In this document: positions 11,985 through 62,213 of the stretch, one piece after another
Layout of the letters: every line of letters begins with the position of its first letter
Position numbering within the stretch: the stretch's first letter is position 1
Source of the DNA: Flavivirga algicola
GTDB lineage: Bacteria > Bacteroidota > Bacteroidia > Flavobacteriales > Flavobacteriaceae
Reading direction: 5' to 3'
DNA length: 64,000 nt
Assembly (NCBI RefSeq): GCF_012910715.1
Contig: NZ_JABBHF010000005.1
Location: forward strand, 62,001-126,000
Notes under the pieces: model-generated
Seen by the model: only the letters and a program-made list of their open reading frames with translations
Databases searched by the model: none
Told to the model about the DNA's origin: nothing
Program-made: the position numbers and the translations under genes

Positions 11985-12086
11985 CAAACTGAAAAAAAAT
12001 AACAAGTATCAACGAGAGACCAAAAAGATTATCGAAGGATAAGATTAAGACCTTAATTCATAATCACTCTCAAAAACAAATTTAAA

Positions 12087-53210: not shown

Positions 53211-56200
53211 TTATTTATTTCGAACTATTTGGACATTCATTTCTTCTACTTTTTTATCGGATAAAGGAGAAGGTGCACCAAACAATAAATCTTCACTGGT
53301 TCCTGTTTTAGGGAAGGCCATAACTTCTCGAATAGAGGCTTTTTTCTCTAAAATCATCATGAGCCTGTCAACCCCCCAGGCAATACCACCATGAGGTGGA
53401 GCGCCGTAATGGAAAGATTTGTACATAGTACCTACACTTTTAAGCATCTCTTCTTTATTATACCCCATATTTTTATAGGTAGCTTCCAGTATTTCTGGCT
53501 TGTGTGCACGAACAGAACCGCCTCCAATTTCATAACCGTTTAAGATAAGGTCATATTGCTGGGCAATAATACTCCCTATTTCTTCTTCTTTGCCATTCAT
53601 ATGCTTCTCAATATCATAAATAGCAGGCATAGAGAATGGGTTATGGGTAAAGGTCCAGCGTCCTTCATCTGTTTTTTCAAACATAGGGAAGTCTATAACC
53701 CAGGCTGGTCGTAATTCTTTCGGATTGATTAAGCGTAACATACGACCTAGTTCTTGACGAACAGCATCTAAGGCTTTATTGGCAGTAGCATAATCTGCAG
53801 CAGAGAAAAATACGACATCTCCTACTTTGGCACTGGTAGTCTTTATAATACCAGAAGCAATATCTTCTCCTAAGAATTTAATGATGGGTGATTGTAAATC
53901 GTTTTCGTTAACAATGATGTATGCTAAACCTCCTAAACCGTGCTGTTGGGCAATAGCTGTTAGTTTTTCTATTTGTCCTTTAGATAAACGTTTCTTTCCT
54001 TGCTCTTCGGCAGATACCTTAATACATTTTACAATACCACCTTCTTCAATAGGTTTACTAAAGACCTGGAAAGTGGTATCTTTTACAATATCCGTAATGT
54101 CCTGCAATTGTAAGCCAAAGCGTAAATCTGGTCTGTCACAGCCATATTTGTCCATAGCTTCTTTATAGGTAAGGACTTCAAAAGGATGTAAAATCCATTT
54201 TTTGCCATATACTTTTTTAACAATGTCGTTGAACATGTTGGTGTTCAAATCTATAATTTGCTGCATACTGGCATAGGCCATTTCTAAATCCAACTGCGTG
54301 AATTCGGGTTGACGATCACCACGAGAGTCTTCATCCCTAAAACAACGGGCTATTTGGAAATATTTTTCATACCCACTTACCATCAACATCTGTTTAAATT
54401 GTTGAGGGGCTTGTGGTAAGGTGTAAAATGAGCCTGCTTGTTTACGGGTTGGAACTATAAATTCTCTGGCACCTTCATCGGTTCCTGCGCTTAAAATAGG
54501 CGTCTCAATTTCTAAGAAATTTCGATCATCTAAAATATCACGCATCAGCTTAATCACTTTGTGGCGATTTACAATAACTCTACGAACATCGTCATTTCTG
54601 TGATCCAAGTATTTGTATTGAAAACGCGTGGTCTCGTTTGTTTTAGTGGCTCTTTTTATTTCAAAAGGAAGCGTTTTAGAAAGATTTAAAATCTCTAAAG
54701 AAGCTGTTTCCAACTCAATTTTACCAGTTCTTAAAGCAGGGTTGTAATCGTCTTCTTTACGTTGCACCAATGTTCCTGTAACCGTAATAACCGATTCGGG
54801 CTTAAGCTTTACTAATTCGTCCAAATTAGGGAATGATTCTCTGCTTAATCGTACCTGAAAAATTTCGTTACTGGAATCTCTTAAATCGATAAAAATAAGT
54901 TCACCATGATCGCGAACACTCGATACCCAGCCAGAAAAAGTAACGTCTTCGGAAATGTTTTCTTCAGAAATATCAGAAATTAAATGTGTTCGGTATTCAT
55001 CTTTTATAACAATTGGAATCTCGGGCAATATTTCTTCCTGCGTTTTGCTGTCTATTTGCAGACCACTAGTTGTAGGGGCTTCTTTTTGTGTTGTAGAGGT
55101 GCTTTGGGCTCCTGGTTCAGAACTTTGCAACTGATTAAGAACTCCTTCGCGAATGACTTTCCCAGAGGCACCCTTACCAATAATGCTAATGACTTTACCA
55201 ACAAGGATCCCTGCTTTTCCCTGGTTTCCAGCTTTAATGTCATTCGCAATAGCTTCATTTTCAGAAATTACTTTTGCAATGGCATCTTGAATTTGAGATT
55301 CCGAAATGGTGTTGTCTTCAAAATACTTAGTATAATTAAAATCTCTGTCTTTTAGATAGGATGTAATGGCATTTTGAACCAGTACAGATGTTATTTTTTC
55401 ATCCTTAAAGAGTTGGAAAATTTCAATAAGATGTTCTATTCTGTGTATGTCTGCATACTCTTCGGCACCAATATTATTTACTAATGTTTTAGCCACAAAA
55501 GAAGGATCTTTAAGGGCATTGTTTATAGTCATAAAAGTCTTGGAACGTAACGAATCTGCTGTGAAAAACTTAGCGTCTTGAGGTAGCACACCACCTTTAA
55601 TTAAGATGGATTCTACAGCATACGGAAGCGTACTGGTATCTACCTGAATAGTATCAACAACGTCTTTAATTGAAACAAAAGGTAAATCGGGTTCTGAAAT
55701 AAAACGATAATCGGCCTCGAACTCCTTTTTACGCATCGTTTTGGTTTGCTTAAGCTCGGCATCCCATAAAACGGTCGTTTGTTCTGGTCGAAATTCCTTA
55801 TGTTCAATATAATAGTTGAACTGTTTTTCAACTTCTTCTTTTAAAGCCTCGACCATAAACTTAAACGAGTTCAAGTTCTTTATCTCGGTACGTGGATTTA
55901 AATTATAGCTATGTTTTTTACGAAGTGATACCGATACATCCGATTTAAACTCGCCTTTCTCAAGATTGGCTTCCGATATTTTTAAATTCTGAACAATACG
56001 CTGAATGTATTGTGCATAAATTGAAGCATCTTCTATATGTCGAATGCATGGTTCGGTTACAATTTCAATAAGTGGTACGCCAGCCTTATTAAAATCGACT
56101 AGAGATACTGCTTTTTCATGTACTAATTTAGCAGCATCTTCCTCAATGTGTACTTGAGTGAGGTTAACTGTAAATTGAGACCCGTCATTTCGGTAACAAG

Positions 56201-56555
56201 AGACTTGTCCATCTGGTATAACGGGATTGTGAAACTGTGTAATTTGAATATTCTTAGGGTTGTCAGGGTATTCGTAATGTTTTCTATCCCAGGAAATCAC
56301 TTCGTTTTCAAAAGACGATTTTACTGCCTTTCCAAAATAAATAGCCTTATTGATAGCTTCTTTATTGATAGCTGGGAGTACCCCCATTTGCCCTGTGCAA
56401 ACAGAACATATATTTTCGTTTGGTGTTTCTATTTCTTGATTCGGACAAGAACAAAACAACTTGGTTTTGGTATTTAATCGCACGTGGGTTTCAAGTCCGA
56501 TTACCAATTCTAATTCGTGGGCTTTTAATGCCGCGTCTAATTGCTTCAGGTCCAT
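53211..56555 (-). CDS. gatB/aspS: GatB - AspS fusion: tRNA amidotransferase subunit B / aspartyl-tRNA synthetase
   Basis: 1114 residues. Residues 1-475 are GatB: ELVIGLETHVRLNTKTKLFC, zinc cysteines C35, C37, C50, C53, and a YqeY-like tail (KAGILVGKVISIIGKGASGK). A Ser/Thr/Pro-rich linker spans ~478-505. Residues ~510-1114 are bacterial-type AspRS with OB fold (GWVSSVRDHGELIFIDLRD), class II motif 2 (RCFRDEDSRGDRQPEFTQLD), a GAD insertion and GVDRLMMIL. His550 corresponds to the position that is His in non-discriminating AspRS. Fusion would channel Asp-tRNA(Asn) to the amidotransferase. Stop-start overlap of 1 bp with gatA. Confidence 0.96.
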   Translation of the reverse strand: MDLKQLDAALKAHELELVIGLETHVRLNTKTKLFCSCPNQEIETPNENICSVCTGQMGVLPAINKEAINKAIYFGKAVKSSFENEVISWDRKHYEYPDNPKNIQITQFHNPVIPDGQVSCYRNDGSQFTVNLTQVHIEEDAAKLVHEKAVSLVDFNKAGVPLIEIVTEPCIRHIEDASIYAQYIQRIVQNLKISEANLEKGEFKSDVSVSLRKKHSYNLNPRTEIKNLNSFKFMVEALKEEVEKQFNYYIEHKEFRPEQTTVLWDAELKQTKTMRKKEFEADYRFISEPDLPFVSIKDVVDTIQVDTSTLPYAVESILIKGGVLPQDAKFFTADSLRSKTFMTINNALKDPSFVAKTLVNNIGAEEYADIHRIEHLIEIFQLFKDEKITSVLVQNAITSYLKDRDFNYTKYFEDNTISESQIQDAIAKVISENEAIANDIKAGNQGKAGILVGKVISIIGKGASGKVIREGVLNQLQSSEPGAQSTSTTQKEAPTTSGLQIDSKTQEEILPEIPIVIKDEYRTHLISDISEENISEDVTFSGWVSSVRDHGELIFIDLRDSSNEIFQVRLSRESFPNLDELVKLKPESVITVTGTLVQRKEDDYNPALRTGKIELETASLEILNLSKTLPFEIKRATKTNETTRFQYKYLDHRNDDVRRVIVNRHKVIKLMRDILDDRNFLEIETPILSAGTDEGAREFIVPTRKQAGSFYTLPQAPQQFKQMLMVSGYEKYFQIARCFRDEDSRGDRQPEFTQLDLEMAYASMQQIIDLNTNMFNDIVKKVYGKKWILHPFEVLTYKEAMDKYGCDRPDLRFGLQLQDITDIVKDTTFQVFSKPIEEGGIVKCIKVSAEEQGKKRLSKGQIEKLTAIAQQHGLGGLAYIIVNENDLQSPIIKFLGEDIASGIIKTTSAKVGDVVFFSAADYATANKALDAVRQELGRMLRLINPKELRPAWVIDFPMFEKTDEGRWTFTHNPFSMPAIYDIEKHMNGKEEEIGSIIAQQYDLILNGYEIGGGSVRAHKPEILEATYKNMGYNKEEMLKSVGTMYKSFHYGAPPHGGIAWGVDRLMMILEKKASIREVMAFPKTGTSEDLLFGAPSPLSDKKVEEMNVQIVRNK

Positions 56556-57955
56556 TATATCGTGTCTTTTAAGAAGTTAGCAAACTTCAAAACGAGTTCG
56601 TCATTATTTTTTGCTGCTGTAACCTGTAAACCTGTTTCTGTACCTTGAGGAACGGTTAAGGTTGGTAGTTGTCCTAGGCTAAAACCTACTGTGTAAGCAT
56701 CCGATAAATACATCGTTAAAGGGGCTTTTAAACTGTCCCCAATTTTAGGAGGCGTATTGGGTGTTACTGGCGATAAGATAATGTCCACTTCATTAAAATC
56801 TTTTTCAAAGTTTTCAGAAATAGCATCTCTTAAAGCAAGGCCTTTTAAATATATTTCATCAGAAAACCCTTGAGACAATACCTGGTTGCCACCAACAATT
56901 CTACGTTTGGTTTCTTCTGAAAATTTCTCAGATCGGGTTATGGCATAAGATTCTTTTAAGTCCTTATCGTCAATGCGATCCCCATAATTGGTGCCATCTA
57001 GTCGTGATAGGTTTGAAGCGGTTTCTGCCATGGCCAATGTGTAATAAGTAGAAACCAGAATATCAGATTTAAAGAAGTCCAGTTCTTTTACCTGAATACC
57101 CTTGGATTTTATTTTTTCAATAGACATTAAAAAATCCGTTTTGATACTGGCATCAATCGCTTCGTTTTCTACAAAGTTTTTAAAATAACCAACGGTTTTA
57201 ATGCTAGCTGTGTTTAAAATACTCTCTTGTTTAATAGCTTCAGAAGGATAGGTTGTTTGGTCTTTTGTGTCTTTTCCACTCATGGCGTTTAGGACAATGC
57301 GAATATCTTCAGCAGATTTAGCTATAGGTCCTACACAGTCTGTCGATGATGCATAGGCCATTAAACCATAACGAGAAATACGTCCGTAAGTTGGTTTTAA
57401 TCCATATACATTATTGTAACCAGCTGGCTGACGTACCGAACCACCAGTGTCTCCACCAATAGAAAAAACAGTGTAGTCCTTAGCAACATTAACCGCAGAA
57501 CCTCCACTGGAACCACCGCCAACTAATTCTGGATTTGTAGCGTTTTTAACAGCACCAAAGATGGTATTTTCACTAGATGAGCCATGACCAAAACTGTCGC
57601 AGTTTTCTTTTACAACGGGTATGGCACCTGCATCCAATAGTTTTTGAATAGCTGTGGCCGTGTATGCCGATTTATAATTTTTAAGTAAGTCTGAGCTTGC
57701 TGTTGCATAAGTACCTTGAAGCATATACACATCTTTGATCCCAAATGGAATGCCCTCAAGCAAACCAATGGTGTCACCATTTGCAATTTTAGCATCCACC
57801 TTGGCTGCTCTGTCTAATGCCAATTCGGTTAATAACGAGTTTACGGTGTTATAAGTGTTCTCTTTGAGCGCGCTTAATTTTTCTTGTATTAAATCGACAC
57901 AAGAAATTTCCTTGTCCACTAATTTTTGGTGGATTTGTTGTATTTGAGATTCCAT
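56555..57955 (-). CDS. gatA: Glutamyl/aspartyl-tRNA(Gln/Asn) amidotransferase subunit A
   Basis: 466 residues, amidase-signature enzyme that releases ammonia from glutamine. Catalytic triad visible: Lys in GIPFGIKDVY, Ser in GGGSSGGSAVNVAKD, and Ser in GGDTGGSVRQPAGYNN, followed by YGLKPTYGRISRYGLMAYAS. Directly coupled to gatB/aspS (1-bp overlap) and 3 bp after gatC. Confidence 0.98.
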   Translation of the reverse strand: MESQIQQIHQKLVDKEISCVDLIQEKLSALKENTYNTVNSLLTELALDRAAKVDAKIANGDTIGLLEGIPFGIKDVYMLQGTYATASSDLLKNYKSAYTATAIQKLLDAGAIPVVKENCDSFGHGSSSENTIFGAVKNATNPELVGGGSSGGSAVNVAKDYTVFSIGGDTGGSVRQPAGYNNVYGLKPTYGRISRYGLMAYASSTDCVGPIAKSAEDIRIVLNAMSGKDTKDQTTYPSEAIKQESILNTASIKTVGYFKNFVENEAIDASIKTDFLMSIEKIKSKGIQVKELDFFKSDILVSTYYTLAMAETASNLSRLDGTNYGDRIDDKDLKESYAITRSEKFSEETKRRIVGGNQVLSQGFSDEIYLKGLALRDAISENFEKDFNEVDIILSPVTPNTPPKIGDSLKAPLTMYLSDAYTVGFSLGQLPTLTVPQGTETGLQVTAAKNNDELVLKFANFLKDTI

Positions 57956-57958
57956 AAT

Positions 57959-58225
57959 CTATGCATCTATAACTTTAGAAACTACTAAATAGCCATTTTT
58001 CTCTTTCGGGAAATTGTCTTTAATGATCTGTTTTTCTAGTGCAGAGCTTTCAATCACGACATCATCTCTTAAATTATTTAAAGACACGCTGTTATTATGA
58101 TTATTATTGGGGGCATTATTTGCTGTTTGTGCATTTTTAATCACATCAAATAATTTACTCACAGCCTCAGAGGGCTGTGCACCTTTAATACTCGACAATA
58201 CGTCGACTGTCATAATTTTACTCAT
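57959..58225 (-). CDS. gatC: Atypical GatC, amidotransferase subunit C
   Basis: 88 residues. The C-terminal ~40 residues fit GatC (LRDDVV, then KDNFPKEKNGYLVVSKVIDA). The N-terminal half lacks the usual LARLxL helical pair, and a low-complexity Asn-rich stretch (TANNAPNNNHNNSVSLNN) lies in the middle. GatC is a belt stabilising GatA-GatB. First structural gene of the operon, preceded by an attenuator-like leader. Identity rests on position and the C-terminal motif. Confidence 0.8.
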   Translation of the reverse strand: MSKIMTVDVLSSIKGAQPSEAVSKLFDVIKNAQTANNAPNNNHNNSVSLNNLRDDVVIESSALEKQIIKDNFPKEKNGYLVVSKVIDA

Positions 58226-58245: not shown

Positions 58246-58274
58246 AAAAAAGCCTTCCAAATTTGGAAGGCTTT
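58246..58274 (-). terminator. Intrinsic terminator in the gatC leader (attenuator)
   Basis: Minus strand: AAAGCCTTCC (58274-58265), loop AAATTT, GGAAGGCTTT (58258-58249), ending in six T (58251-58246). It lies 21 nt upstream of the gatC ATG. Its 5' arm CCTTCC can alternatively pair with GGAAGG at 58301-58296. Confidence 0.85.
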
Positions 58275-58295
58275 ATATATTTTTAAAAACAATAA

Positions 58296-58320
58296 CCTTC
58301 CTAATCCTAAACATTAGGAT
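58296..58320 (-). promoter_or_regulatory. Antiterminator and anti-antiterminator segments of the gat leader
   Basis: Minus strand: ATCCTAA (58320-58314) and TTAGGAT (58310-58304) form a perfect 7-bp hairpin that spans the last leader codons and stop. GGAAGG (58301-58296) just after it can pair with the terminator 5' arm CCTTCC (58270-58265). The two structures compete in the order 1:2, 2:3, 3:4 of classical attenuators. Confidence 0.7.
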
Positions 58321-58354
58321 TATTGAAATTATTATTGTTATTATTTTTTGTCAT
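58307..58354 (-). CDS. Asn-rich leader peptide of the gatCAB-aspS operon
   Basis: ATG 58354-58352 to TAG 58309-58307; 15 residues MTKNNNNNNFNNPNV, 9 of them Asn (AAT and AAC codons). It starts about 17 nt after a TATCTTTG -7 box and ends inside the first leader hairpin. Too short for ordinary ORF calling. By analogy with leader peptides of amino-acid operons, it would sense charged tRNA(Asn). Confidence 0.72.
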   Translation of the reverse strand: MTKNNNNNNFNNPNV

Positions 58355-58371
58355 AATATGTTATCTGCTGT

Positions 58372-58379
58372 CAAAGATA
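58372..58379 (-). promoter_or_regulatory. -7 box of the gat operon promoter
   Basis: CAAAGATA on +, which is TATCTTTG on minus, fitting TAnnTTTG and identical to the argS and queE boxes. Expected transcript start is about 10-12 nt before the leader ATG. Confidence 0.65.
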
Positions 58380-58699
58380 TGTAGAATAAATTTAGTAAAC
58401 ATCATTTTTTCTTCATCTACAATTTTTATTGTCAAATTAATAAAAAACCCAAAATTATTTTATTGCTTTTATAACGATTATTCGTTTAAGGTTCATTCTA
58501 GGCATAATATTTCGTTATTGTAAGTTGGAAAGCATGGTTTGTTCATCTGTGGTATGATTGAAAATTTCATAAAACAACCTATGTAAATACGTTGTGTTTA
58601 ATGCTTGTTTTCTAAACTTTAAATCTGTTCTGTTTGAACTAAACTAAAAAACAAAGAAAGTTTTTAAACAAAAGCTAATATAACATTGATAAATGACCA
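58380..58699. other. AT-rich spacer between divergent gat operon and LRR gene
   Basis: No ORF above background, hairpin or repeat could be supported in this stretch, other than whatever upstream promoter elements it holds for the two divergent units. A 66-codon + strand reading frame (58323-58523) runs antisense through the leader peptide and looks spurious. Confidence 0.4.
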
Positions 58700-58858: not shown

Positions 58859-60610
58859 ATGAACAAACAATTACTTTTTTTATTAACCGTCATTTTATAC
58901 GGTATGTTGTCTTATGGACAAACGTTTACATTTAATGGTATAAATTATACGGTTACCGATGCTGTTGCTGAAACGGTGGAGGTTGCATCAAACACAAACT
59001 ATACGGGAGCCGCTGTGATTCCTGCTACGGTGACAGATGGTGGTGTTACCTATCAGGTTAAGGCTGTAGGTCTTGAGGCGTTTAAAGACTGTGTAGGGTT
59101 GATGTCTGTGAGTATGCCAAATTCTATTGAAATCATTGAAAATTCTGCTTTTCATAATTGTACAGGTTTAACATCTGTAAATATTCCAAATTCCGTATCA
59201 GCCATTTATTTTCATGCATTTAGAAATTGTACGGGCTTAACCTCCTTAGATATTCCAGATTCAGTTTTGACTATTGGAAGGTATGCTTTTTCAGGCTGTA
59301 CAGGATTAACGTCATTAAACATTTCAAATTCTGTAAGGAGTATTGGTCCATTTGCGTTTAGCAACTGTCGTAGCATAACGTCATTAAGCATTCCTGATTC
59401 TATTTCAATTATAGCTGAATCTGCATTTTCAGGCTGCACTCGTATAGAGTCATTGGATATTCCTGATTCTATAGAGGGTATTCGTGATTATGCCTTTGCA
59501 GGCTGTCATAGCATAACGTCGTTGGATATTCCGAATTCTGTTTTGACTATAGGAAGTAGTGCGTTTCGTGGTTGTGCAAGTTTAACTTCCATAGTTATTC
59601 CAGATTCTGTAGTGAGTATTGGAGATAGTACATTTAGGGATTGTACAGGTTTAACGACTATCGATATTCCAGATTCAGTTTCAAGAATTGAAGATTTTAC
59701 GTTTTATAACTGTACAGGGCTAACATCAATAATTATCTCAAATTCTGTTGTAGCTATTGGGCGTTATGCATTTTCTAGGTGTAGTAGTTTAGAGTCAATA
59801 AATATTCCAGATTCTGTTACCAGTATTGGAGAATTTGTATTTCAAGCCAGTACAGGGTTAAGATCATTGAATATCCCAGATTCTGTAACAACTATTGAAA
59901 AAGGAACGTTTTCTAATTGTACTGGTTTGATCTCAATAAGTATCCCAAGTTCGATAACAAGTATTGGTGACAGTGCGTTTAGTAGCTGTGTAAACCTGAG
60001 ATCATTGGATATTCCAGAGTCTGTTGTAAGCATTGGAACAAATGGGTTTTATAATTGTAGAGCATTAAGATCATTAGATATTCCAAATTCTATAACAAGT
60101 ATTGGAGCAAGATCGTTTTCTAACTGTAAAAATTTAACAACATTGAGTATTCCTAATTCTGTGATTAGCATTGGAGAAGTTGCATTTTCTGATTGTACAT
60201 CACTGACTTCGGTAACCGTTGCTCATGCATCTCCCTTGTCAATTAATAGCAATGTATTTGAGAATGTAAATACCGCAGCAGCGACTTTGCACGTGCCATC
60301 GGGGCGTAAAATTGCTTACAGAGCAGCAGATGTATGGAGAGATTTTGGAACTGTATTAAATACAGAGGAACTACAAAAAAATGCAAATACATTTAGTATG
60401 TATCCCGTTCCTAACAAAGGCGTCTTAAATGTAAAATCGAAGGTCTATGATTCCTTTCAAATCATAAACCAATATGGTCAAGAAGTGAAACGTTTTACAG
60501 TAGCACCAGGAGTCGCTACAAAATTAAATATAAGTTTTTTAAGTGACGGTATTTATTATGTTAAAGCAGTACAAAGTACTAGTACAAAAAAACTGGTTAT
60601 CAAGAAATAG
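58859..60610 (+). CDS. BspA-type leucine-rich repeat protein with T9SS sorting domain
   Basis: 583 residues. Signal peptide (LLFLLTVILYGMLSYGQ), then a short N-terminal module, then about 18 BspA/Treponema-type LRRs of 23 residues (CTGLTSVNIPNSV-x-I-x-AF pattern, residues ~70-480). The C-terminal type IX secretion sorting domain is ~500-583 (FSMYPVPNKGVLNVKSKVYD, ending KKLVIKK). Expected to be secreted across the outer membrane and attached to the surface, a likely adhesin-like or binding role. Its sorting domain DNA is almost identical to that of the next gene. Confidence 0.92.
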   Translation: MNKQLLFLLTVILYGMLSYGQTFTFNGINYTVTDAVAETVEVASNTNYTGAAVIPATVTDGGVTYQVKAVGLEAFKDCVGLMSVSMPNSIEIIENSAFHNCTGLTSVNIPNSVSAIYFHAFRNCTGLTSLDIPDSVLTIGRYAFSGCTGLTSLNISNSVRSIGPFAFSNCRSITSLSIPDSISIIAESAFSGCTRIESLDIPDSIEGIRDYAFAGCHSITSLDIPNSVLTIGSSAFRGCASLTSIVIPDSVVSIGDSTFRDCTGLTTIDIPDSVSRIEDFTFYNCTGLTSIIISNSVVAIGRYAFSRCSSLESINIPDSVTSIGEFVFQASTGLRSLNIPDSVTTIEKGTFSNCTGLISISIPSSITSIGDSAFSSCVNLRSLDIPESVVSIGTNGFYNCRALRSLDIPNSITSIGARSFSNCKNLTTLSIPNSVISIGEVAFSDCTSLTSVTVAHASPLSINSNVFENVNTAAATLHVPSGRKIAYRAADVWRDFGTVLNTEELQKNANTFSMYPVPNKGVLNVKSKVYDSFQIINQYGQEVKRFTVAPGVATKLNISFLSDGIYYVKAVQSTSTKKLVIKK

Positions 60611-60632
60611 GGCTTTTAGAATGACTGGTCTT

Positions 60633-60661
60633 AAAGCTGCCATGTATTGGCAGCTTTTTTT
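60633..60661 (+). terminator. Intrinsic terminator after first LRR gene
   Basis: AAAGCTGCCA / TGGCAGCTTT stem, loop TGTAT, seven T. Confidence 0.88.
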
Positions 60662-60824
60662 GTTAACAATATTTGTGCTAATAAAAACAGAATTACAAAA
60701 GTAATTCCCATTTTTGGGGACGAATAAATGTCTTTTTTAGGCTTACGGTCAGAATAAGAAAAGATGCCATATTTAGGTACGGAAATACCCTATATTCAGT
60801 GAGAAAAACAAGTGTCATGTTGAA

Positions 60825-60832
60825 TAAATTTG
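60825..60832 (+). promoter_or_regulatory. -7 box of the second LRR gene
   Basis: TAAATTTG fits TAnnTTTG, 37 bp before ATG 60870. Confidence 0.5.
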
Positions 60833-60869
60833 CATCATAATCGAGTATGAAATTTTAACTCTAATCGTG

Positions 60870-62213
60870 ATGAATAAACAAATACTTTTTTTACTGTTGA
60901 CTTTTGTGTGTGGTATGATGTCCTATGGACAGGATTTTGAATACAATGGCATTAACTATAGGGTAACCGATGATATGGCACTAACAGTAGAGGTTGCTGT
61001 AAATGTAGATTATACAGGTGATGCTGTGATCCCTGCTGCTGTAGTCTATAATGGTGACTCTTATCGGGTTACAAAAATTGGAGATGAGGCTTTTAGGAAC
61101 TGTACAGGCTTAAGTTCGGTAAATATTCCAGATTCCGTTATAAGTGTTGGGCATCATGTTTTTTCTGGTTGTAGTAGCTTAGTTTCAGCAAATATCCCAG
61201 ATTCCATTACGGGTATTGGGCATAGTATGTTTTATAATTGTACTAGCTTGGTCTCAATAAGTATCCCAGATTCCGTTACGAGTATAGGAGTTCAGGCATT
61301 TAGAAATTGCAGAGTTTTAAACTCAATAAGCATCCCAGATTTTGTTACCAGTATTGGGGCGCATGCGTTTTCTAGCTGTAGAAGCTTAACCTCAATAGGT
61401 ATTCCAAGTTCTGTTATGAGTATTGGAGATTCGGCTTTTTGGGACTGTTCTTATTTAACATCGGTAAACATCCCAGATGCTGTCACCAGTATTGGAGATC
61501 GTGTATTTGGTGGATGTAATAGATTGGCATCTATAGTTATACCCGATTCGGTTACAAGTATTGGTGAATTAGCATTTTATACATGTCGTAATTTGGTCTC
61601 AATAAATATCCCAGATTCTGTTACTAGTATTGGAGATCGTGCGTTTTCTAGTTGTTCTAGTTTAACTTCAGTAAGTATCCCAGATTCCGTTACGAATATA
61701 GGGCTTCGTGCATTTAATGGCTGTACTGGTTTAATATCGGTAAATATCCCAGATTCCGTTACCAGTATTGGAAGTTATACGTTTGCTAGCTGTATAAGAT
61801 TAACTTCGGTAACTGTGGGTCATGCATCTCCTTTGGCCATTGATAGAACTGTTTTTAACAATGTAAATACCTCAGGAGTGACTTTACATGTACCAGCGGG
61901 GCTTAAAATTGCTTACAGAACGGCAGACGTATGGAAAGATTTTGGAACCGTATTAAATACAGAGAAACTACAAAAAAATGCAAATACATTTAGTATGTAT
62001 CCCGTTCCTAACAAAGGCGTTTTAAATGTAAAATCGAAGGTCTATGATTCCTTTCAAATCATAAACCAATACGGTCAAGAAGTGAAGCGTTTTGCAGTAA
62101 CACCAGGAATCACTACAAAATTAAACACAGGGTTTTTAAGCGACGGAGTTTATTATGTTAAAGCAGTCCAAGCCCAGGACACTGGTGCGAAAAAGCTAAT
62201 TGTTAAGAGGTAA
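60870..62213 (+). CDS. BspA-type leucine-rich repeat protein with T9SS sorting domain, paralogue
   Basis: 447 residues from ATG 60870 (an in-frame GTG lies one codon earlier). Same layout as the preceding gene but with about 12 repeats: signal peptide (MNKQILFLLLTFVCGMMSYG), N-module, BspA LRRs (SVNIPDSVTSIGDRAFSSCS style, ~70-335), type A sorting domain at the end (FSMYPVPNKGVLNVKSKVYD, ending AKKLIVKR). A tandem duplicate, separately transcribed (terminator before, -7 box, terminator after). Confidence 0.92.
   Translation: MNKQILFLLLTFVCGMMSYGQDFEYNGINYRVTDDMALTVEVAVNVDYTGDAVIPAAVVYNGDSYRVTKIGDEAFRNCTGLSSVNIPDSVISVGHHVFSGCSSLVSANIPDSITGIGHSMFYNCTSLVSISIPDSVTSIGVQAFRNCRVLNSISIPDFVTSIGAHAFSSCRSLTSIGIPSSVMSIGDSAFWDCSYLTSVNIPDAVTSIGDRVFGGCNRLASIVIPDSVTSIGELAFYTCRNLVSINIPDSVTSIGDRAFSSCSSLTSVSIPDSVTNIGLRAFNGCTGLISVNIPDSVTSIGSYTFASCIRLTSVTVGHASPLAIDRTVFNNVNTSGVTLHVPAGLKIAYRTADVWKDFGTVLNTEKLQKNANTFSMYPVPNKGVLNVKSKVYDSFQIINQYGQEVKRFAVTPGITTKLNTGFLSDGVYYVKAVQAQDTGAKKLIVKR

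Follow-up and report, generated by a model that had tools for sequence, protein, structure and literature searches.

Attenuators of the trp, his and thr type place a short open reading frame (ORF) rich in the regulated amino acid ahead of alternative hairpins and a U tract. In Firmicutes, T-boxes control aminoacyl-tRNA and amidotransferase genes, including gatCAB and asn genes.

Clues for leader-peptide attenuation before amino-acid biosynthetic operons, as well as structured 5' regions before aminoacyl-tRNA synthetase genes, have been described in Flavobacterium psychrophilum (passages of PMC9723704), and a 2010 study on attenuation of amino-acid and aminoacyl-tRNA operons is cited in a passage of PMC4833913. 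In Deinococcus and Thermus, AsnRS and GlnRS occur together with GatCAB and a second, non-discriminating AspRS, which make Asn on tRNA (passages of PMC4206432 and PMC6523644); these passages mention no attenuator on this system. A survey of genomes with AsnRS, GlnRS and GatCAB places Bacteroidetes among those without Asn synthetase, reports a second AspRS among genomes without Asn synthetase only in Deinococcus-Thermus, and considers it possible that AsnRS and the tRNA-dependent route coexist in many bacteria (passages of PMC4206432).

Here we analyze a window of 64,000 nucleotides of Flavivirga algicola DNA that contains a gatC-gatA-gatB/aspRS operon on its minus strand. Judging from comparative sequence analysis, the leader of this operon is very probably an attenuator of the trp/his type, in which the ribosome senses Asn-tRNA(Asn) and thereby governs transcription of the genes downstream. 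What we observe here are the parts of this element, how they are conserved and spaced, a preference for Asn at the level of codons, and the genes around them.

Results

GatB is fused to a second AspRS in the F. algicola operon

The first gene of the operon, gatC (57959..58225, minus strand), encodes 88 aa and scored 24.3 bits against an NCBIfam cut-off of 47.1 and 21.9 bits against a Pfam cut-off of 23, while gatA (56555..57955, minus strand) reached 426 bits where NCBIfam requires 481.1; both predicted proteins are thus divergent members of their families, and we named them from their best matches and the gene order. The third gene (53211..56555, minus strand) encodes a protein of 1114 aa that joins GatB to a second, bacterial-type AspRS, with residues 14-477 matching GatB and residues 520-1112 matching bacterial AspRS with a GAD domain. 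This fusion is in effect a covalent transamidosome. The NCBIfam matches below cut-off included a family for an AspRS-GatC fusion but none for a GatB-AspRS fusion, and we found no report of the latter in the literature searched (titles, abstract starts and passages).

GatC has an Asn-rich tract (ANNAPNNNHNN) near its middle, an odd feature for an enzyme making Asn-tRNA, which occurs in most of the GatC proteins compared, those of leaderless loci included. Elsewhere in the window, the plus strand carries an S4-Flavobacteria ribosomal protein leader (12027-12065, 51.5 bits), and two adjoining repeat proteins (583 and 448 aa) are encoded at 58859-62213, which resemble each other and are almost the same at their C-termini.

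An Asn-rich ORF and alternative hairpins precede gatC

By sequence reading, we located all of the elements named in the initial annotation on the minus strand within 58246-58379. A putative -7 promoter box, TATCTTTG (58379-58372), has the form of the Bacteroidota consensus TAnnTTTG and is followed by a 15-codon leader peptide ORF containing 9 Asn codons (MTKNNNNNNFNNPNV; 58307..58354, with ATG at 58354 and TAG at 58307). At the end of this ORF lies the hairpin ATCCTAA (58320-58314)/TTAGGAT (58310-58304), spanning 58304..58320, which holds the leader stop codon in its 3' arm. The stop codon is followed by GATTAGGAAGGTTATTGTT and then by AAAGCCTTCCA-AATT-TGGAAGGCTTT, with a T tract reaching 58246. 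Segment 2 (GGAAGGTTATTGTT, 58288..58301) contains the antiterminator strand GGAAGG (58301-58296), which ends 11 nt past the leader stop codon. Segment 3 (AAAGCCTTCCA, 58264..58274), the 5' arm of the terminator, can be the partner of segment 2 or of segment 4 (TGGAAGGCTTT, 58246..58259). The latter completes, with its U tract, a predicted intrinsic terminator whose arms are AAAGCCTTCC (58274-58265) and GGAAGGCTTT (58258-58249) and whose T tract (58251-58246) stops 20 nt short of the gatC start codon (58225).

The hairpin at the ORF end had been annotated as pairing 1:2. It stands as the inner part of that pairing, and the view that 1:2 consists of the CCTAA/TTAGG hairpin alone was ruled out by folding and alignment, in which a larger outer stem pairs Asn-Phe codons, AACAATAAT (58339-58331) and TTTC (58328-58325), with GAAGGTTATTGTT (58300-58288). 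Folding and alignment place segment 1, the partner of segment 2, at the Asn and Phe codons AACAATAATAATTTC (58325..58339). The 125-nt leader RNA had a folding z of -7.0, with 0 of 200 shuffles equally stable. Upstream of the -7 box, about 70 bases (58379-58480; TTTTTTATTAATTTGACAATA ... AAAAATAGTG) are alike by eye in the nearer relatives, and this conserved stretch is perhaps a regulator site.

The association of T-boxes with aminoacyl-tRNA and amidotransferase genes in Firmicutes would agree with an antiterminator bound by a protein or a tRNA, for which the ORF would be irrelevant. However, no Rfam family reached its gathering score on the leader (best sub-threshold match: Phe_leader, 35.2 bits vs 55), the T-box was absent among the 22 Rfam matches at E<=10, and a T-box would need a longer element than this one. 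We regard an antiterminator of this kind as extremely improbable.

The leader keeps its frame in those Flavobacteriaceae that have it

A GatA search of 199 genomes of the family gave 32 positives at E<=1e-120, from which 30 loci were retrieved. The whole element was present in 20 and absent in 10 of these 30 gatC-gatA loci. Conservation of the Asn-rich micro-ORF in relatives, named in the initial annotation as support, was found at the 20 loci and in 83 records recovered by a sequence pattern (see below), and orthologous regions without such an ORF, which had been named as counter-evidence, were found at the other 10. In the 20 GatA-found leaders, an Asn run is followed by FNNP, one or two further residues and the stop codon TAG; frame and stop are kept in 20/20, as are F, NN and P. 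The 10 leaderless loci have a TAATTTT promoter-like site beside gatC, and we found in them no Asn-rich ORF with a terminator and no covariance-model match at E<=1; this points to complete loss or absence of the element rather than to its decay. The other two GatA-positive genomes comprise one with a strong model match (G170) and one with gatC but without the leader core (G180); two gatC loci from a phylum sample (L130, L131) are also leaderless.

A DNA pattern of the leader core matched 88 loci. Leaders were present in 83, all Bacteroidota records, and the 5 matches in other phyla (L050, L051, L059, L060, L063) had neither a leader nor gatC. The leader lies directly before gatC in 82 of the 83 records (gatC identified by script in 79, and by eye in L045, L057 and L106), and L104 ends at a contig edge. 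These records are assigned to Algibacter, Polaribacter, Flavivirga, Seonamhaeicola, Hyunsoonleella, Tamlana, Tenacibaculum and other genera, with two labeled only 'Bacteroidia bacterium'; contigs of equal length show that they have genomes in common with the GatA set, and the two sets are not independent. In 82/83 pattern-found leaders, a TAnnTTTG motif precedes the TTC codon at a distance of 42-72 nt, most often 48-55 nt.

We built a covariance model from 83 rows, namely the window and 82 of the 83 pattern-found leaders (L104, with no terminator remaining, was left out). Among 397 genomes of the family, 37 had one strong match each (>=89.7 bits), no score fell between 47.5 and 89.7 bits, and the remaining matches reached at most 47.5 bits. 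gatC lies downstream in 30/30 of the strong loci retrieved; the number of matches shows how widely the element occurs and adds no independent support. In G124, a genome that the search with GatA did not pick up, the leader and gatC lie at a contig edge. In the phylum sample, GatA was found at E<=1e-120 in 3/395 genomes, all of the same family. Resolution is poor in the GatA tree (33 rows), on which the leader state has to change 7 times, compared with a shuffled mean of 10.6; a tree of this kind does not separate repeated loss from transfer.

The terminator covaries

The alignment of the leaders (A2) has 83 rows, of which 82 are distinct. Taken together, 1:2, the inner hairpin and 3:4 are paired in 96.5% of cells, compared with 43-64% for slid partners and a mean of 95.7% for column shuffles (0/500 reach 96.5%). 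The initial annotation had named compensatory changes in the three pairings as support, and the terminator shows them. Pairing 3:4 is formed in 97.1% of cells with true double changes in 3/11 pairs, where columns 104-111 go from AU to GC in 28/82 distinct rows and columns 97-118 from GC to AU in 4. The pairing of GGAAGG with CCTTCC in the antiterminator 2:3, also annotated at the outset, is formed in 98.5% of cells (31-74% when slid). As 2:3 contains no double change and 475/500 column shuffles do equally well, covariation says nothing for this pairing, in which little variation is possible because CCTTCC must pair with two partners.

The 1:2 stem is paired in 97.4% of cells and is the weakest part of the element: its changes are mostly one-sided, to G-U, one double change occurs in one row, and pair 22-62 is broken in 17/82 distinct rows, so that compensatory change in the strict sense is borne out neither here nor in 2:3. 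At the site of this pair, 16/83 rows (13 of the 16 titled Polaribacter) have a CGT codon and one has CTT. We had considered the Arg codon of the Polaribacter-type leaders as compensatory for 1:2 and rejected this, as it is this codon that, with the CTT row, breaks 22-62. The search pattern dictated alignment columns 27-49, so the 83-row set cannot count in favor of the inner hairpin; in the 20 rows obtained through GatA instead of the pattern, the five central pairs of this hairpin are formed in 20/20, one of them via G-U in 6.

Asn codons are maintained in the leader ORF

Each of the 83 aligned rows contains 7-10 Asn codons. At alignment codons 10 and 13, located 5' of segment 1, the AA codons end in T or C (46 AAC, 0 AAA/AAG), and a non-Asn residue is found in 7/83 and 6/83 rows, respectively. 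Codon 40, after Pro, has 3 AAC and 12 AAA/AAG (Fisher 2.6e-10 for AAC vs AAA/AAG at codons 10/13 vs codon 40; with related rows, this p is only a guide). The third-base preference at codons 10 and 13 suggests that Asn itself, beyond RNA pairing, is kept in the run.

We scored sequences with a detector that requires an intrinsic terminator and a small ORF with >=5 Asn in 12 residues. It found the F. algicola leader in a stretch of 350 nt, of which 0/2000 first-order Markov shuffles were positive. Among 374 ORFs of >=200 aa from the window and the 88 pattern loci, a set that excludes the shorter gatC, the only positive was a trpE-like gene.

These results bear on whether a plain 5' terminator that trims transcription might merely adjoin an Asn-coloured ORF that arose by chance from high AT content. 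Runs of AAT occur often in such DNA, and some of the Asn codons lie within an RNA stem, which would be enough alone to conserve them. However, an accident of this kind is at odds with a frame and stop kept in all 20 GatA-found leaders, with the third-base T/C of Asn codons 5' of the stem, with the narrow range of spacing from stop to segment 2 described below, with the recurrence of Asn-rich leaders with terminators before asnB, and with the shuffled controls, and we consider it very unlikely.

The position of the ribosome is predicted to select the fold

GGAAGG ends 9-11 nt past the leader stop codon in 82/83 rows and 12 nt past it in one. With this spacing and the size of the ribosome footprint, a ribosome at the stop codon should cover segment 2 and a ribosome on the Asn run should leave it free. 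In folding models, 2:3 exceeded 0.5 in 80/83 leaders with the ribosome on the run and segment 4 unmade, and 3:4 exceeded 0.5 in 81/83 with the ribosome at the stop codon; some of the failures (L046, L053, L064) concern rows that are visibly out of register in the alignment. Without a ribosome and before segment 4 is made, 2:3 exceeded 0.5 in 77/83 leaders and 1:2 in 1/83; in full-length RNAs at equilibrium, 1:2 exceeded 0.5 in 46/83. By equilibrium folding, 1:2 is no strong guard, so that in these models most of the switching has to come from where the ribosome stands, and termination of an untranslated leader RNA is predicted to depend on kinetics.

The trp-type logic proposed in the initial annotation is supported by the conserved ORF, by terminator covariation and by the stop-to-segment-2 spacing. 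We infer where transcription starts, that the leader is translated, that ribosomes stall on it and that the operon responds to Asn supply. When Asn-tRNA is ample, the ribosome would reach the stop codon and its footprint would cover GGAAGG, in which case CCTTCC would pair with the second GGAAGG and transcription would end. When Asn-tRNA is short, the ribosome would wait on the Asn run, holding segment 1, and the freed GGAAGG would take CCTTCC, block the terminator and allow the operon to be transcribed.

The operon probably makes Asn on tRNA

AsnB (TIGR01536 over cut-off) was missing in 21/32 genomes with GatCAB compared with 12/167 without it (Fisher 1.7e-12; 4.5e-12 with G124 moved); these calls were made from best E-values, and a tally of 166/199 genomes over cut-off agrees with them. 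AsnA was found in 0/32 GatCAB genomes. GlnRS was over cut-off in 32/32 and AsnRS in 31/32 of these genomes, the exception (G180) being also leaderless. A fused AspRS frame (1115-1123 aa) and a free AspRS (585-669 aa) were each found in 31/32 genomes, with frames assigned by match position and length and the two of F. algicola alone checked by NCBIfam; G170 has AspRS fragments.

The single tRNA-Asn of F. algicola among 30 tRNA loci scanned of 36 matches has a U1-A72 pair, and U1-A72 of tRNA-Asn directs amidation (passage of PMC9976931). The fused AspRS has the motif RDHG, as in 4wj3, compared with RDLG in 1efw and 6hhv and RDKG in the free AspRS of F. algicola, and RDHG is present in 21/21 complete fusions among the pattern-found loci. 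We take the His of RDHG to mark a non-discriminating AspRS, 4wj3 to be an Asp/Asn enzyme, and 1efw and 6hhv to be T. thermophilus-type entries. GatCAB and the second AspRS probably make Asn on tRNA, a role that an Asn-reading leader fits. Within the GatCAB genomes, leader presence showed no link to AsnB (present in 6/20 with the leader and 5/10 without; p 0.43), and no attenuator was found before the F. algicola AsnRS or free AspRS genes.

Asn-rich leaders also precede asnB in two genera

We applied the detector upstream of 60 asnB genes of housekeeping match length from 60 genomes without GatCAB; 2/60 were positive (L256, L259), compared with 0/600 Markov shuffles. Further asnB leaders were seen at L255, L257, L258 and L260-L278. 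The sampled members of the two genera concerned (G010, G076) had no GatA match. In genus g76, the leader was found in 4/4 genomes with an asnB match (of 11 genomes, several incomplete); these leaders end in NNNFNNNNAKT or NTNLNNNNAKT and have AAACTTG as segment 2 and a terminator with CAAGTTT. In genus g11, a leader and terminator precede asnB in 20/21 genomes with a match (of 23), 19 found by the detector and one by eye (L272), with none at L279. The g11 leaders have two Asn clusters, mostly NNN and NNN, with other residues variable and FNNP absent. As a segment 3 complement of >=5 bases was present in only 6/19, their 2:3 pairing is less sure.

The g11 leaders also bear on nascent-peptide arrest, in which ...FNNP.* would stall the ribosome on another signal and Asn would serve as a residue, not as a tRNA sensor. 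The invariance of F, NN and P in the 20 GatA-found leaders exceeds what a pure codon counter needs and is in line with this view. The TTC and CCT codons are nevertheless part of predicted RNA pairs, which can explain the invariance, and the g11 asnB leaders keep Asn runs but have no FNNP. For these reasons, peptide arrest has little credibility, comparable to that of a chance ORF, and we retain the Asn-tRNA attenuator.

Segments 2-4 of the asnB leaders differ from those of the gatC leader. The Asn/Phe codons are shared over up to 18 nt in g76 and up to 16 nt in g11, which rules out the notion that the asnB and gatC leaders have no sequence in common. The peptide part may have a single origin, and the sharing weakens the case for separate ones.

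The one detector-positive ORF noted above belongs to a Polaribacter record (L069:1690-1980), in which a leader MKNNTNNTWWWNSLI with WWW and a terminator precede a trpE-like gene (463 aa; best matches TrpE, 413.8 bits vs cut-off 517.7). This leader is likely a trp attenuator, a match that indicates that the attenuation mechanism probably exists in these bacteria.

Discussion

We are inclined, if only slightly, to view Asn-tRNA attenuation as a recurrent device of Flavobacteriaceae, built with varied switch segments and placed on whichever enzyme supplies Asn: gatCAB with the GatB-AspRS fusion where asnB is mostly missing, and asnB elsewhere. On gatCAB, such a device would respond to what the enzymes under its control directly make, and would thereby choose between Asn made on tRNA and imported Asn charged by AsnRS. 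An Asn-codon-counting leader would be a direct and testable answer, in a large marine family, to how bacteria with both routes choose between them, with the indirect route switched on by shortage of its own product, Asn-tRNA. The leader may also help annotators to separate Asn-making from Gln-making GatCAB.

In the literature searched (titles, abstract starts and passages, with subscription papers mostly outside), we found no Asn leader on gatCAB or asnB. The mechanism is known; its Asn specificity and its target are new as far as this literature was searched.

The F. psychrophilum attenuation clues (PMC9723704) come from related bacteria, and the main text contains neither 'gatC' nor 'asparagine'. 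Deinococcus and Thermus have the same enzyme set as F. algicola, with AsnRS, GlnRS, GatCAB and a second AspRS; their second AspRS is archaeal-type, whereas the one in F. algicola is of the bacterial type, has a GAD domain and forms one protein with GatB. The T-box of Firmicutes acts on the same kind of operon and senses the charging of tRNA(Asn), but does so by direct tRNA binding and without a leader peptide. The gatC leader resembles the trp/his/thr-type attenuators in its ORF rich in the regulated residue, in its alternative 2:3 and 3:4 pairings with a U tract, and in a stop codon placed so that a ribosome that has finished the peptide would cover segment 2. It differs from them in that it would read Asn, in an inner hairpin that holds the stop codon, in a weak 1:2 pairing, and in a target that is a tRNA-dependent amidotransferase with AspRS, not a pathway to a free amino acid.
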